A stretch of 60,268 bases of DNA from Rhodanobacter fulvus Jip2 (GTDB lineage Bacteria > Pseudomonadota > Gammaproteobacteria > Xanthomonadales > Rhodanobacteraceae), in contig NZ_AJXU01000027.1 in the NCBI RefSeq assembly GCF_000264315.1, positions 1 through 60,268 on the forward strand, given 5' to 3'. Positions within the stretch are counted from its first letter, which is position 1; every line of letters begins with the position of its first letter. A program made the translations under genes and the position numbers. The notes below the pieces were generated by a model. It did no database searches. It was not told where the DNA came from and was given only the letters and a program-made list of their open reading frames with translations. Shown here piece after piece: positions 28,476-36,829 of this stretch.

Positions 28476-29198
28476 TCACGGCATCTGCGGCAGCTCCTGC
28501 GGGCGCAGATCGAACACCAGTACCTCGGCGTTCTCGCCCTTGCCCAGTTGCAGCGTGCGCGGGTTGCGCAAACGCACGCCGTCGCCCGCTTCCAGCTTCA
28601 CGCCGTTGAGCTCGATGCTGCCGCGGGCCACGTGCACGTAGGCATGGCGGTTGTCGTCCAGTGTCAGCGTGGCGCTTTCATCGCCGTGGAACAGGCCGGC
28701 GTAGACCGACGCGTCCTGCTGGATGCGCAGCGACTCGTCGCCGCCGTCCGGCGAGATGATCAGGCGCAGTTGGCCGCGCTTGTCGGCCTCGGCGAAGTGG
28801 CGTTGCTGGTAGACCGGTTCGCCGCCGGCCTCTGCCGGTGCGATCCAGATCTGCAGGAAGTGCACCGGCGCCTCGTCGGAGCCGTTGAACTCGCTGTGGG
28901 TCACGCCGCTGCCGGCGCTCATCAATTGCACGTCGCCGGGCTTGATCGCCGAGCCGGTGCCCATGCTGTCGCTGTGCGCCAGCGCGCCTTCCAGCACGTA
29001 GGAGAAGATCTCCATGTCGCGGTGCGGGTGTTTGCCGAAGCCCTGGCCCGGCGCCACGCGATCCTCGTTGATCACGCGCAGGTCGGAAAACCCCATCTGC
29101 GCGCGGTCCATGTAGCTGGCGAACGAGAAAGTGTGGCGCGAGCTGAGCCAGCCGTGTTCCGCCACGCCGCGCTCGGAAGCCTTGCGTACTTGCATCAT
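28476..29198 (-). CDS. Pirin-family protein (YhhW-like quercetinase)
   Basis: 240 aa. The bicupin layout is clear. The N-terminal cupin has HPHRDMEIFSYVLEGAL with metal ligands His57 and His59, and SGVTHSEFNG with His101 and Glu103. This set is intact, as in E. coli YhhW, which shows quercetin 2,3-dioxygenase activity. The C-terminal cupin lacks metal ligands. The start codon overlaps a second ATG. The LysR gene 167 bp upstream is divergent and very probably controls it; this pirin/LysR arrangement is common in proteobacteria. Confidence 0.92.
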   Translation of the reverse strand: MMQVRKASERGVAEHGWLSSRHTFSFASYMDRAQMGFSDLRVINEDRVAPGQGFGKHPHRDMEIFSYVLEGALAHSDSMGTGSAIKPGDVQLMSAGSGVTHSEFNGSDEAPVHFLQIWIAPAEAGGEPVYQQRHFAEADKRGQLRLIISPDGGDESLRIQQDASVYAGLFHGDESATLTLDDNRHAYVHVARGSIELNGVKLEAGDGVRLRNPRTLQLGKGENAEVLVFDLRPQELPQMP

Positions 29199-30760: not shown

Positions 30761-32611
30761 TCACTCGAGCTCTGCGACGCTCACCGGCGTGGCGCCGCTC
30801 CGCAACGTCGAGCCCGGCACGGGTATGCCTTCCTTGTCGAGCAGGTCGCCCGTGCCCGCATGCGCAACGACGCGGTTGCGGCCAGCACCCTTGGCGCGAT
30901 AAAGCGCCGCGTCCGCCTCCTTGCACAGCCGCTGCAAGTCATGGCCGGATACTTCGGTGGACGCCAGGCCGACGCTGGCGGAAATCGTTATCACGCAATC
31001 GTCGTGTCCCATCGGTGTGGCGTCGATCGCGATCCGGATGCGGTTGGCAATCTCCAATCCTTGATGGCGGGAACATCCGGCCAGCAGGATGCCGAACTCC
31101 TCGCCGCCCAGACGGCCAAACAGATCGGCGGGTCGCAGCTCCTGCTGGCAGATCGCCACCGTCTGCTTCAGCACGGCGTCGCCCATGGCGTGGCCGTGGG
31201 TATCGTTGACCTGCTTGAAGTAATCGAGGTCGATGGAAATCAGACAGGCCTGCTCTTTCTTTTTCTTCGATGCCTGCAATACACGGGCCGCTTCGCCGAT
31301 GAAATGCTGGTGGTTGAAGATGCCGGTGAGGCCATCGTGGTGCGACAGCCGTTTGAAGCGCAGCTGCGAACGCTTGAGGCGATAGAGCCAGGAAGCGATG
31401 AATGCGACGATCAGCAGCAGCATCAGGATGTAGAGCCGGCCGGTTTCCACCGCCTTGGCGTCCAGCGCCCGTTGCAGGCGCAGCATCGCGTTCTGCCTGC
31501 TGAGCTTCTCGGTTTCCAGTTTCCCGGTCAGCAGGTGCTGCTGCACGGTCTGGTAGGCCAGCGCGCGGGCGCTGACGTCGTTGAGATAGCCCTTGTCCTG
31601 CACTGTGTAACGCTCGAAATACGACAAGGCGACGGCCGTGTCGCCGCGTTCCTTCTCCACCTTGTAGAGCACCTCGTAAACGGCCTTGAGCGCCTCGCTG
31701 ATCTCATTGGGATCACTCAGCGAAAGTGCCGCCAGAGCGGCCGTTCGGGCGTCGGCAAGACGGCCCAGCGCCAGCAGGGCCCTTGCCCGGAATACGGCGG
31801 TCGACTCGATGTGCGCGTAAAGCCCGTTGCGCTTGATGCCCGGTTCGATCCGGTCGAGCAGCGCGAGTGCCTTCGCCGGCTGGTTTTCCCGCAGATACGT
31901 ATCCACCATGACAAGCCGCAACGTGTTGACGTAAACCGGCTGTCCTGCCGCCTTGCATGTCTCGATGGCCTGATGAAACTCCGGGCTGGAGGAGGTGAGC
32001 GTGGGGCTGTCGTACCGGATGGTGATCTGCAGCGAGCGGGGAGGGCAGAGGGTCGCGCCGGGAGGGAGATTGCTTTCGATCATCCGTGCATAGTTGAGCG
32101 CCAGGTCACGCTTGTCGGCCAACAACATCGATTGCGCCAGATTGAACAGCACTTGAAAGCGTGCGAGCGGATCCTTGATGTTGGGAAGGTCGGTCGCCAG
32201 GCGGTCGGCCAGGGCAAAGGCTTCCTCGTACCGGCGGGTGAAACCCAGTCCGGTCAGGCGCATGGCTGAAGCCCTGGCGGCCAGCGTGGCATCGCCGGCG
32301 TGCTCGGCGACGGCGCGCAGCTGCGCGTCGGCCTTGGTGTAGTCACCCTGGTAAGCGGTTTGCCACGCATCGAGATAGCGCAGGTGCCATTGCTCGGCAG
32401 GGTTAAGGCGAGGCGCCTCGCGGTGGATCTGCGCCAGCATGCGCACGAATCGCGGGTGATCGCTGGTGCGTACGCTGTCGATCTGGGCAAGGAATGCCGC
32501 CGGGTCGGGTATCGCCGCGCTGGCCCGGGTCATTCCCGCGATCGCGCAGAGGGCCAGACCCACGCAGGCGGGCCATGAGCGGTAGCGGACCGGCAGACGA
32601 AGCATGCGCAT
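30761..32611 (-). CDS. Membrane diguanylate cyclase (GGDEF) in the borosin operon
   Basis: 616 aa. A signal peptide (LALCAIAGMTRASA, cleavage near 32) leads to a periplasmic sensor region of TPR-like helices (about 40-385), then one transmembrane helix at about 391-411 (LYILMLLLIVAFIASWLY), a short coil, and a GGDEF domain. The active site is GGEEF at 502-506, so it should make cyclic di-GMP. A canonical inhibitory I-site RPAD (493-496) lies five residues before it. It starts 13 bp after the stop of the predicted borosin precursor, preceded by an AGGCGAG ribosome site, so it is probably co-transcribed with it. ATG at 32611 or 32605. Confidence 0.9.
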   Translation of the reverse strand: MRMLRLPVRYRSWPACVGLALCAIAGMTRASAAIPDPAAFLAQIDSVRTSDHPRFVRMLAQIHREAPRLNPAEQWHLRYLDAWQTAYQGDYTKADAQLRAVAEHAGDATLAARASAMRLTGLGFTRRYEEAFALADRLATDLPNIKDPLARFQVLFNLAQSMLLADKRDLALNYARMIESNLPPGATLCPPRSLQITIRYDSPTLTSSSPEFHQAIETCKAAGQPVYVNTLRLVMVDTYLRENQPAKALALLDRIEPGIKRNGLYAHIESTAVFRARALLALGRLADARTAALAALSLSDPNEISEALKAVYEVLYKVEKERGDTAVALSYFERYTVQDKGYLNDVSARALAYQTVQQHLLTGKLETEKLSRQNAMLRLQRALDAKAVETGRLYILMLLLIVAFIASWLYRLKRSQLRFKRLSHHDGLTGIFNHQHFIGEAARVLQASKKKKEQACLISIDLDYFKQVNDTHGHAMGDAVLKQTVAICQQELRPADLFGRLGGEEFGILLAGCSRHQGLEIANRIRIAIDATPMGHDDCVITISASVGLASTEVSGHDLQRLCKEADAALYRAKGAGRNRVVAHAGTGDLLDKEGIPVPGSTLRSGATPVSVAELE

Positions 32612-32624
32612 GTCTCGCCTGGTG

Positions 32625-32906
32625 TCAGGGATTGGTCTGGCCGGGGACTGGCATCGGCGCTGGTTCGAGCTCGCCTTGCTCGACTTCATCGTCCTCGTGG
32701 CCGGGCGTGTGCGTAACCTGCGGCTGCTGCATCGGCATGTGTCCCAGCTCCGCGTAGAGCGCGGCGCTGTCGCCAGTCGAGACGGCGGCCGTGAGCGCGT
32801 CGGAGGCACCCAGCTGTTGCAGCCACTCCGCCAGTTCGTGCCTCGATGCATGCCGCAGCGACGCATCGGTGCCGATGGCCTCCAGAAGTTCGATCGTATT
32901 CGACAT
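32625..32906 (-). CDS. Predicted split-borosin precursor (SonA-like)
   Basis: 93 aa. Residues 1-55 form a helical domain: MSNTIELLEAIGTDASLRHA, then ELAEWLQQLGASDALTAAV and STGDSAALYAELG. This pattern (LG-DA-L, then a GD-x-x-x-L turn) resembles the borosin binding domain of SonA, the separate precursor of the Shewanella borosin system, as I remember it. Residues 56-93 are disordered and rich in Pro, Met, Gln and acids (HMPMQQPQVTHTPGH, then EPAPMPVPGQTNP), the place where a modified core would lie. It sits 65 bp downstream of the SonM-like methyltransferase, same strand, with a good AGGGGA ribosome site. Assignment as precursor is inference from context and layout. Confidence 0.7.
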   Translation of the reverse strand: MSNTIELLEAIGTDASLRHASRHELAEWLQQLGASDALTAAVSTGDSAALYAELGHMPMQQPQVTHTPGHEDDEVEQGELEPAPMPVPGQTNP

Positions 32907-32971
32907 GTCGTCCCCTGCTTTCGATGGTGTTGAGCATCTGTTTCGAACGCATCGCGCAGCGCTATTCCGCA

Positions 32972-33796
32972 TCAGGCCATGGTCGTTTCCCGGTCCAATG
33001 CTGCCAGTCGCTCGCGCATGGCCAGGTTCAGTTTGAGCGGCGCGGCGGGTGGCAGCACCACGGTGTGTTCTGTCGTCAGTTCGGCGGCGGGCAGCTCACG
33101 CAATGCGATACGGCGTATTTCCGGCCTCTGTATCGGGAGCGTCGCGGCGCGATAGATGATGACCTCGTGGTCCAGCGGATAGTCCTGACTCAGCAGATCC
33201 ACCAGTACCTGCCGGTACGCTGCGCCGGTGGAAAAGCGCTTTAGTGACAGATCGCCCACCAAGCCGACCTGCCACAACACCAGATAGCCGGTGGGATCGA
33301 TCTTGCGTTCATAGAAAAGCAGTTGGCTGGCCTCGAAATGCTGGCACCCGAAACGGCCCGGGTCGATGCCCAGGTCGGCATAGAGACAATCCTCGGCGGA
33401 AATGCCCGGTTCCATATGCGCGTCGAAACCTTCGGCACGCGCCACCTCGATGGCCTTGTGCGGCGACCAGGCGAAGATGCCGGGATGGCCATAAAACACC
33501 CCGCAAACCCGCTTGCCTGCACGCACCTCGGTCATCATCAACTCGACCCATTGCCGGTAGGTCTGCATGCGCGACTTGCCTTCCGCGTAATACGGCTGGA
33601 GGCTGCGTACGTCTGGATGCATCCGCTGCAGCCACATCTCCACGGCCCCATCGGAAAGGCCCGCGAACACCACGTCGGCCTGCTCGATGTGGCTGCGTGC
33701 CAGCGGCGTGAGGTGGGAGCCCAGCGTCATACCCATGCCAACGCACGCCAGCTTGCCGCGGCGGGACTCGGTCAATGGGGGATGGGCGGCGGTCAT
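32972..33796 (-). CDS. SonM-like borosin alpha-N-methyltransferase
   Basis: 274 aa. It has the tetrapyrrole (corrin/porphyrin) methylase fold: KLACVGMGMTLGSHLTPLAR at the first strand, VVFAGLSDGAVEMWL, then VCGVFYGHPGIFAWSP and MEPGISAEDCLYADLGIDP. These stretches and FEASQLLFYE, LVLWQVGLVGDL and YPLDHEVIIYRA agree closely with SonM of Shewanella oneidensis, which methylates backbone amides of SonA. The tyrosine cluster used for catalysis in borosins appears as Tyr69, Tyr70 and Tyr80 with Arg75 (LQPYYAEGKSRMQTYRQW). There is no cobalamin or siroheme gene nearby, against a porphyrin role. SAM is the methyl donor. It lacks a fused core peptide, so it is a split system with the gene at 32625. 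Start ATG 33796; weak ribosome site. Confidence 0.88.
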   Translation of the reverse strand: MTAAHPPLTESRRGKLACVGMGMTLGSHLTPLARSHIEQADVVFAGLSDGAVEMWLQRMHPDVRSLQPYYAEGKSRMQTYRQWVELMMTEVRAGKRVCGVFYGHPGIFAWSPHKAIEVARAEGFDAHMEPGISAEDCLYADLGIDPGRFGCQHFEASQLLFYERKIDPTGYLVLWQVGLVGDLSLKRFSTGAAYRQVLVDLLSQDYPLDHEVIIYRAATLPIQRPEIRRIALRELPAAELTTEHTVVLPPAAPLKLNLAMRERLAALDRETTMA

Positions 33797-34886: not shown

Positions 34887-34955
34887 CATTTACTGATTGT
34901 AGTGAAATACGCAAATGCTCAACATGGCGCCACCTTCAACCACCAAGGCGAAAAC

Positions 34956-35933
34956 ATGCGTACCCACCTCCGCGGCAACATCCTCCGTGCCACCACCGCA
35001 GCCATCCTTCTGGGGCTCACGGCGTCCAGCGCCTTCGCCGCGGCGCCGATGGCCCAGACATCGGCGCCGGGCTATTACCGCTTCATGCTGGGCAATTTCG
35101 AGGTCACCGCGCTCAGCGATGGCACGGTGGATCTGCCGGTGGACCAGTTGCTGCACGAGCCGGCCGCGAAAACGGTGGCTGCGCTGAACCACGCCTTCCT
35201 GAAGACGCCGCAGGAAACCTCCGACAACGCCTACCTGGTCAACACCGGCAAGCGCCTGATCCTGATCGATACCGGCGCCGGCGACCTGTTCGGACCGACG
35301 CTCGGCAAGTTGATGAGCAACCTGAAGGCTTCCGGCTATAGCGCCGCCGACGTCGACGACATTCTGCTGACCCACATGCATCCGGACCACGTCGGCGGCC
35401 TGGTGAAGAACAAGGTGATCCAGTTTCCCAACGCCATCGTCCATGCGGAGCGTGACGAGGGCGATTACTGGCTGAGCGAAACGAACCTGGCCAAGGCGCC
35501 GGATGCCTCGAAGGCCTTCTTCAATGACGCCATGGCCGAGCTCGACCCGTACGTGAAGGCCGGGAAATTCCGTCCGTTCAAGGGCGACGTGGCGCTGCTG
35601 CCGGGCGTGAGTTCGTATACCAGCTTCGGGCATACGGCGGGACATACTTCGTACATGATCGAAAGCCAGGGGCATAAGCTGCTGCTGATGGGCGACCTCA
35701 TTCACGTCCCCGCCGTCCAGCTCGATCATCCGAACGTGACCATCTCCTTCGACAGCGATCCGAAGGAAGCGGCGGCGTCGCGCATCCGCGTATTCAATGC
35801 GATGGCGAAGGACAGGACGCTGGTTGCCGGCGCGCATATCCCGTTCCCCGGCGTTGGCCATCTGCGCACGGCCGGCGCGTCCTATCAGTGGGTGCCGGTC
35901 AACTTCAGCCGGATGCGTCAGAACGGGGATTGA
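34956..35933 (+). CDS. Secreted MBL-fold metallo-hydrolase
   Basis: 325 aa with a signal peptide (AAILLGLTASSAFA, cleavage near 28). The metal motif THMHPDHVGG gives His140, His142, Asp144 and His145; FGHTAGHTSY and MGDLIHVPAVQL supply further ligands. The region FEVTALSDGTVDLPVDQLL and the overall pattern resemble the periplasmic quorum-quenching/lactonase-like MBL proteins (for example AidC-like or PNGM-type) common in proteobacteria. It is divergent from a LysR gene, the same arrangement as at 20 kb. A perfect 12-bp hairpin follows its stop. The substrate is unknown. Confidence 0.88.
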   Translation: MRTHLRGNILRATTAAILLGLTASSAFAAAPMAQTSAPGYYRFMLGNFEVTALSDGTVDLPVDQLLHEPAAKTVAALNHAFLKTPQETSDNAYLVNTGKRLILIDTGAGDLFGPTLGKLMSNLKASGYSAADVDDILLTHMHPDHVGGLVKNKVIQFPNAIVHAERDEGDYWLSETNLAKAPDASKAFFNDAMAELDPYVKAGKFRPFKGDVALLPGVSSYTSFGHTAGHTSYMIESQGHKLLLMGDLIHVPAVQLDHPNVTISFDSDPKEAAASRIRVFNAMAKDRTLVAGAHIPFPGVGHLRTAGASYQWVPVNFSRMRQNGD

Positions 35934-35953
35934 GCATCTTCGGGAGTCGAAGT

Positions 35954-35983
35954 CGAAAAGCAGCGGTTCATCGCTGCTTTTCG
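35954..35983. terminator. Bidirectional terminator
   Basis: A perfect 12-bp stem, CGAAAAGCAGCG (35954-35965) with CGCTGCTTTTCG (35972-35983), and a 6-base loop. AAAA and TTTT runs on the arms let it work for both the MBL gene and the convergent methyltransferase gene. Confidence 0.8.
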
Positions 35984-35986
35984 CTT

Positions 35987-36829
35987 TCAGCGCCGCACCG
36001 CCACCACGCCGTCCAGCGCCAATTGCGCCTTGAAGCCGGCTTTCTCCAGTCGCTTTTCCACTTCGCGCGGTACGTCGCGGCCGCTGGTGAGCTTGTTCGG
36101 GCTGCCGGTGTAATGGAACAGCCGCCCGCCGCGGCGCAGCACGCGGGCGAGCTGGTCGTAGAACGCCTGCGAGTAGAGTTCGCCCGCGATGCCGAAGCGC
36201 GGTGGATCGTGCAGCGCCGCGTCGACCGAGGCGTCGGCGAATGAGGTGATCGCCTGCGATACGTCGGCATGGGTGAGCAACAGACGACCGCCGCTGGTGT
36301 CGGCATCCGGGTCGGGCGACCACGGGTTCAGCGTGCGCAGCCACAGCACGTCGGCGTTTTTCTCGAACGAATGGATACGCGCCACGCCGGCTTCCAGGCA
36401 GCAGGCCGCGAAGTAGCCCAGGCCACCGCAGGTGTCGAGCACCACCTTGCCGGCCGGTTCGACCAGCGCCACCTTGCGCCGCGCATCCTCGAACGGCGAC
36501 TCCTTCGCCGTGGGCAGCATCTTGATGCCGTCGATCTCGAACGTGGGTGCGCCCCATTCGGTGGGCACCAGCTTGATCAGCGAGCCGGAGAAACGCGCCA
36601 CCGGCGCGTAGTCGTCGCCATCACGGTAGTAGATGGTGCGGTCCTTCAGCTTGCCGGGGTAGGGATGGCGCTGGCCGCGCCACTCCCAGTCTTGCGTCGA
36701 CAACCGCGCGTGATCGCGGGTGAAACCCAGCGTCAGCGAGCCGTGCCATGCGTCGGCGCCGGCGTCGCGCGCCGTGGCCAGCGATTCGGCCACGGGGCGC
36801 GTGAGCAGGGGGCCGGAATAATGCGGCAC
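35987..36829 (-). CDS. Class I SAM-dependent methyltransferase
   Basis: 280 aa. The SAM-binding motif I is VVLDTCGGLGYFAACCLEAG (about 129-148), motif II acid in HSFEKNAD, and the active-site motif DPPRF at 208-212, close to the DPPY/DPPK motifs of RNA-modifying methyltransferases of the RlmI type. The N-terminal 110 residues form a beta-rich domain (LTLGFTRDHARLSTQDWEWR) distinct from PUA, so the target may differ. It is cytosolic and monocistronic, ending at a strong terminator. An alternative is a spermidine-synthase-like small-molecule methyltransferase. Confidence 0.75.
   Translation of the reverse strand: MPHYSGPLLTRPVAESLATARDAGADAWHGSLTLGFTRDHARLSTQDWEWRGQRHPYPGKLKDRTIYYRDGDDYAPVARFSGSLIKLVPTEWGAPTFEIDGIKMLPTAKESPFEDARRKVALVEPAGKVVLDTCGGLGYFAACCLEAGVARIHSFEKNADVLWLRTLNPWSPDPDADTSGGRLLLTHADVSQAITSFADASVDAALHDPPRFGIAGELYSQAFYDQLARVLRRGGRLFHYTGSPNKLTSGRDVPREVEKRLEKAGFKAQLALDGVVAVRR

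Follow-up and report, generated by a model that had tools for sequence, protein, structure and literature searches.

A split borosin-type locus in Rhodanobacter fulvus Jip2 joins a SonM-like methyltransferase and a SonA-like precursor to a conserved TPR/GGDEF sensor gene

Results

Gene content of the locus

The window, by which we mean the whole 60,268-nucleotide stretch of Rhodanobacter fulvus Jip2 DNA analyzed here (contig NZ_AJXU01000027.1), carries three adjoining genes on the reverse strand that encode a SonM-like methyltransferase, a small SonA-like precursor, and a TPR-TM-GGDEF protein (Table 1). The methyltransferase and precursor are encoded separately, and the gap between their genes measures 68 bp, not 65 bp as given in the initial annotation. 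An AGGGGA stretch resembling a ribosome-binding site lies ahead of the precursor ATG, and the sensor gene begins 13 bp past the precursor stop codon. Both open reading frames that the initial annotation had proposed, for the enzyme and for the small protein, were confirmed with their ATG starts. Its reading of the locus as a SonM-like enzyme with a SonA-like precursor holds but was incomplete, as the third conserved gene, the TPR/GGDEF sensor, had been missed. Elsewhere in the window, ARAGORN placed a tRNA-Lys at 28749-28838 (+) inside a pirin open reading frame (28476-29198, -); this call is probably spurious.

Table 1. Genes, domains, and predicted segments of the three-gene unit, in window positions
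Feature	Position	Strand	Length or residues	Basis
SonM-like alpha-N-methyltransferase	32975-33796	-	274 aa, ATG start	PDB phmmer, Pfam, kept catalytic residues
SonA-like precursor	32625-32906	-	93 aa, ATG start	ORF; protein homologues; family profile match to SonA
Leader/borosin binding domain, five predicted helices	32745-32906	-	residues 1-54	AlphaFold2, Foldseek
Putative core, HMPMQQPQVTHTPGHEDDE	32685-32741	-	residues 56-74	conservation in P0001-P0014
Variable acidic/proline tail	32628-32684	-	residues 75-93	54% mean identity in P0001-P0014
TPR-TM-GGDEF diguanylate cyclase (predicted)	30761-32611	-	616 aa	Pfam GGDEF 7.7e-40; conserved neighbor
Signal-peptide-like N terminus	32513-32611	-	residues 1-33	hydropathy segment 16-34, then ASA-A; by eye
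TPR sensor domain (predicted extracytoplasmic)	31442-32506	-	residues 36-390	AlphaFold2, alignment, Foldseek
Single transmembrane segment	31385-31441	-	residues 391-409	hydropathy 2.15
GGDEF domain	30872-31345	-	residues 423-580	GGEEF 502-506; RPAD (RxxD, I-site position) 493-496; Pfam

The methyltransferase belongs to the borosin family

Searching the PDB with phmmer identified SonM (7ltc, E 2.8e-78) as the closest solved relative of the methyltransferase, followed by the fungal enzymes dbOphM, OphMA, and MroMA (E 1.3e-53 to 5.9e-50), indicating the presence of a borosin-family alpha-N-methyltransferase domain. Identity to SonM extends to 127 of 251 aligned residues (51%). Furthermore, Y70, R76, Y80, and Y102 align with SonM Y58, R67, Y71, and Y93, with all four kept; the available text of PMC8429565 describes these SonM positions as active-site residues probed by mutation. 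Of the catalytic cluster named in the initial annotation, Tyr70 and Tyr80 align with SonM Y58 and Y71; residue 75, taken there for the arginine, is a serine, and the catalytic arginine is Arg76. The motifs that it had listed as common to SonM (YGHPGIFA, MEPGISAEDCLYADLGIDP, FEASQ, and YPLDHEV) do fall in shared stretches, exactly or nearly. A single match to the enzyme was found in the R. fulvus assembly, which comprises 130 contigs and is 99.94% complete.

An ordinary tetrapyrrole (cobalamin or siroheme) methylase that happens to lie beside an unrelated small protein would agree with the Pfam TP_methylase match (E 1.3e-20) and with weak matches to precorrin and siroheme models. However, none of the seven NCBIfam matches (precorrin, cobalt-precorrin, siroheme, and YabN models) passed its curated cut-off: scores for the precorrin and siroheme models were 12 to 21 bits where 163 to 400 are required, and YabN reached 35.6 bits of a required 525. 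In the search against borosin families that had been set beforehand as a test, the best matches were borosin enzymes, and a homologue of the precursor is present in 74 of 80 related loci (eight of these recognized by inspection of open reading frames after BLAST had missed them). We consider a tetrapyrrole methylase extremely improbable, and this identity was dropped because the NCBIfam scores lie far under their cut-offs and the PDB matches are SonM and OphMA.

The precursor has a SonA-type leader and a conserved polar core

A protein search with the 93-aa precursor listed 43 entries at E <= 0.01. The top entry, 97% identical and lacking an outside source, represents the cluster to which the window protein itself belongs. 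The precursor matched no Pfam or NCBIfam family, and a single-sequence PDB search gave no credible relative; its kinship to SonA therefore rests on the family profile. Built from 50 sequences, this profile retrieved SonA chains as its top seven PDB matches (E 1.7e-4 to 6.6e-4), and the four SonA alignments printed were ungapped. Together with the PDB result for the enzyme, this link supports the split borosin reading and the SonA-type leader that had been claimed at the outset. When SonA of Parashewanella was used as the homologue query, it retrieved only itself. The R. fulvus genome holds one clear copy of the precursor, with a second match (E 0.015) on another contig.

AlphaFold2 predicted helices at residues 3-13, 15-19, 22-31, 36-44, and 47-54, followed by a tail of low pLDDT, in line with the initial annotation of this protein as helical at its N terminus with a disordered tail. 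The five helices lie in the same register as those of SonA, residues 1-53 of which form a five-helix domain according to the available text of PMC8429565. Foldseek ranked a SonA chain first (probability 0.85, TM 0.70 by target length, E 1.3), and SonA chains made up 10 of 29 matches at E up to 10, with no E-value significant; the siroheme synthase CysG accounted for another 8 of the 29, at probability 0.15 or less. SonA is 71 aa long, compared with 93 aa for the window precursor and its acidic/proline tail. Read from its sequence, the precursor has no hydrophobic signal segment.

Among P0001-P0014, mean identity to the window was 84% in the core (residues 56-74), 80% in the leader, and 54% in residues 75-93. 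The conserved block, HxPMQQPQ(V/I)xHTPGHEDDE, is likely the core with its acidic border. Extending the ungapped register of the profile, Gln63 and Thr65 would correspond to SonA L63 and I65, the residues at which SonA is methylated (PMC8429565, available text). SonA differs at these hydrophobic positions from the window core, which is polar (Q, T, H, P, and G) and proline bounded (QPQVTHTPGH) and for which methylation is putative. The same text calls the SonM pocket hydrophobic where the methylated residue sits, which counts against a polar core as a substrate. Cores of 11 tested pairs were primarily hydrophobic, and OphMA and SahM tolerate a broad range of cores, as stated in the available portion of PMC11285071.

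Precursors vary across related loci

Several of the related loci carry two or three precursors. Hydrophobic cores occur elsewhere in the family, including NVCCMMLPATVCCMMLPGM (L060) and repeated ALMPPF-like units (L065), and the window precursor thus appears to represent one branch of a family in which the leader is kept and the core varies. Precursors with two Cys-rich hydrophobic segments, which may be multicore borosin precursors, were seen at L060:7045-7311 (NVCCMMLPA, then TVCCMMLPG), L045:6965-7231, and L051:7387-7704. The precursor at L065:6827-7129 has approximately four tandem C-terminal hydrophobic segments (ALMPPF, ALMPAF, ALMAPI, and SLVAPF) and no acidic tail.

We compared acidic stretches with sensor adjacency in 87 precursors, a count that leaves out the Shewanella precursors: 72 were acidic and adjacent to a sensor, 3 acidic and not adjacent, 4 nonacidic and adjacent, and 8 neither (Fisher 1.2e-6, kinship ignored; adjacency set by hand for L072, L075, L077, L078, and L079). 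A rule that sensor-adjacent precursors carry an acidic tail was nonetheless dropped, because Shewanella precursors adjoin the sensor without such a tail.

The third gene encodes a predicted membrane-bound diguanylate cyclase

By sequence, the third gene is predicted to encode a diguanylate cyclase. Among 75 complete sensors, GGEEF is kept in all, RxxD at the I-site position in 70, and a membrane segment at the expected place in 73. An N-terminal signal-like segment was detected in 30 of 75 by a crude hydropathy cut, so that part of the case for a TPR domain outside the cytoplasm comes from the sequence of the window sensor itself and from two invariant cysteines. These residues, C189 and C219 of the TPR domain, are invariant among 44 aligned sequences and would suit a disulfide bond outside the cytoplasm.

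The TPR domain was modeled by AlphaFold2 at a pLDDT of 92.5. Foldseek matched this model first to LGN complexes, then to Rap with CSF (rank 7), NprR with NprX (rank 13), and a phage Rap with its pheromone (rank 16). Since LGN-type TPRs outrank Rap, the likeness is to peptide-binding TPRs in general. The RRNPP receptors Rap and NprR (Foldseek entries 4gyo, 4gpk, and 8rtc) offer a functional analogy, in that a TPR superhelix is encoded beside a peptide gene. The window sensor differs from them in its predicted location outside the cytoplasm and in the membrane helix leading to a GGDEF output, and with a weak match to RapF (E 0.012) as the sequence link, we do not claim it as a member of that family. 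A sensor paralogue with 39% identity lies elsewhere in the same genome (L087, contig C17, approximately 34955-36043), with no family precursor open reading frame seen beside it.

Enzyme, precursor, and sensor are conserved as a unit

Of the 80 fetched loci, 69 contain the TPR part and 68 show the order enzyme-precursor-TPR/GGDEF; in these 68, the precursor and the TPR protein are separated by a median of 12 bp. Six other window neighbors were each present in 1 to 16 of 80 loci when counted anywhere in the locus. Precursors lie no more than 250 bp upstream of 71 of 78 sensors. Outside the 68 ordered loci are L053 and L073, which stop just past or inside the enzyme. In L075, L077, L078, and L079, the order is kept by inspection but the sensors were too divergent for the BLAST criterion, and the GGDEF domain of L079 is without the motif. 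L080 holds the 3' part of the enzyme, and no such downstream gene was found in it. In L048 and L071, short precursors were present and the sensor was not found; L056 has sensor and enzyme, with no precursor found; and in L059 neither precursor nor sensor was found. An Undibacterium locus (L076:3575-6004) shows a different order, with a GGDEF gene and a 139-aa open reading frame bearing a leader-like stretch upstream of the enzyme.

The unit extends to Shewanella, where the enzyme is present in 53 of 60 genomes of the genus of Shewanella sp. SR44-3. A GGEEF protein lies downstream of the enzyme in 20 of 20 extended Shewanella regions, a chosen set of which none is known to be MR-1, and a precursor was recognized by motif in 14 of 17. 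Across 197 genomes of the family, 128 encoded the enzyme (E <= 1e-30) and 124 the TPR part (E <= 1e-15) at thresholds of our own choosing; both occurred in 123 genomes, neither in 68, the enzyme alone in 5 (all of one genus), and the sensor alone in 1 (86% complete). The Fisher value for this co-occurrence is 1.2e-45 with kinship ignored.

Repetition was also observed within a locus. In L063 (1964-12768), one enzyme gene is followed by three successive precursor and TPR/GGDEF pairs, the last sensor being cut by the locus end. Two further TPR/GGDEF genes lie upstream of that enzyme, and the whole looks like an expanded peptide-sensor array.

Core and TPR domain covary

Covariation was assessed in 72 units (71 from loci plus the window). 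Core distance correlated with TPR distance after enzyme and GGDEF distances were removed (r = 0.44, partial Mantel p = 0.003, 299 permutations), whereas the control of core against GGDEF distance, with enzyme and TPR distances removed, gave r = -0.06. Removing the leader as well lowered the core-TPR correlation to 0.36, and to 0.29 in the two subsets nearest the window. The correlation between leader and TPR is at least as high (0.36-0.50; 0.48 with the core controlled), which means that part of the core-TPR signal is due to shared history. Furthermore, partial Mantel tests are liberal, and we take the covariation as support for, rather than proof of, a relation between peptide and sensor.

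These results bear on whether the sensor recognizes the peptide. Alternatively, the cyclase may be an operon partner that tunes c-di-GMP for timely production or secretion of the peptide and does not sense it. Such a role would be compatible with the kept GGEEF and RxxD motifs and with the paralogue that lacks a neighboring precursor, and co-occurrence and synteny suit any functional link, not ligand binding alone. It fits less well with a core that is tracked by the TPR half and not by the GGDEF half, and the repeated precursor and sensor pairs behind one enzyme in L063 are better explained by ligand-receptor pairing. We regard an operon partner of this kind as rather unlikely, and sensing of the methylated peptide, although tentative, as somewhat the better supported of the two. 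Counting against sensing are the paralogue, L056 with its missing precursor, and the five genomes with an enzyme and no detected sensor.

Maturation and export

The three-gene operon contains no protease and no exporter. Shewasin A is said to cut a borosin precursor in Shewanella. A search for pepsin-family (PF00026) genes found none in the R. fulvus genome, and of 10 related genomes 1 gave matches; both PF00026 searches came back empty for the 14 control genomes. On this distribution, pepsin-type maturation as in Shewanella was rejected here. In Alteromonas sp. KUL42, a PF00026 gene (L072:4221-5660, E 9.4e-20) immediately precedes that of the borosin enzyme and is a candidate maturation protease.

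A protease-free operon also raises the possibility that the precursor stays full length, with the methylated protein itself acting as a regulator or partner that makes contacts through its acidic tail. The preponderance of sensor adjacency among acidic precursors (72/75, against 4/12 of the nonacidic) and the covariation of leader and TPR domain would be expected under such a scheme. However, the precursor has no hydrophobic signal segment and the predicted site of the TPR domain is outside the cytoplasm; Shewanella precursors that adjoin a sensor have no acidic tail; and conservation within the protein is lowest in residues 75-93. A full-length active product is accordingly improbable in our judgment, and we favor release of a methylated core peptide.

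Discussion

Type IV split borosins form a heterotetramer of a dimeric enzyme and two precursors, in which the core backbone is iteratively N-methylated. Every feature of a split (type IV-like) borosin that was tested is present at the R. fulvus locus, as read from its sequence and predicted fold. SonM/SonA of Shewanella oneidensis is the nearest known system and likewise encodes enzyme and precursor separately (PMC8429565, available text). The fungal OphMA/dbOphMA enzymes belong to the same family but carry the precursor as a C-terminal extension, in contrast to the separate protein found here. Since a SonM relative adjoins a SonA-like peptide gene, the genome likely makes a backbone-methylated peptide, and we consider it very probable that the SonM-related enzyme acts on the separately encoded 93-aa precursor, N-methylating amides of its core backbone.

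In the model that we propose, the leader (residues 1-54) would dock on the enzyme, and the core (approximately residues 56-74) would be N-methylated from its N-terminal to its C-terminal end, with Gln63 and Thr65 at the positions matching SonA Leu63 and Ile65. The peptide would be released and exported by a host protease and an exporter, neither of which lies in the operon. On binding the TPR domain, the peptide could then alter how much c-di-GMP the GGEEF domain makes. We give slightly less than even weight to this sensing step, in which the co-encoded TPR/GGDEF sensor would take the methylated peptide as its ligand. We hold with the same reserve the broader suggestion that split borosins of Gammaproteobacteria may constitute a c-di-GMP signaling system, with a pheromone-like methylated ligand, a membrane-bound TPR receptor, and a cytoplasmic diguanylate cyclase half.

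Parts of this picture may have precedents. A bacterial borosin product was reportedly described in 2023. As of 2021, no type IV pathway had been linked to a final natural product, according to the available text of PMC8429565. A GGDEF element is named in a published scheme of borosin architectures (Figure 1 legend, PMC11395268), the legend text of which does not state its borosin type or role, and the linkage of borosins to GGDEF domains may therefore be partly known. Among open-license PMC papers, we found none beyond PMC11395268 linking borosins and GGDEF domains, none joining borosins with Rhodanobacter, and none on a diguanylate cyclase with a periplasmic TPR domain and a peptide ligand; one review came up for RiPP precursor peptides together with c-di-GMP and GGDEF domains.

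In sum, a sensor gene accompanies those of the enzyme and precursor in Rhodanobacteraceae, Alteromonas, and Shewanella, which poses the concrete question of whether the peptide controls c-di-GMP. If its methylation proves true, the polar and strongly conserved core would widen the range of known natural backbone N-methylated sequences. Should the signaling reading also prove true, the split-borosin class of RiPPs would gain a built-in target and a function.
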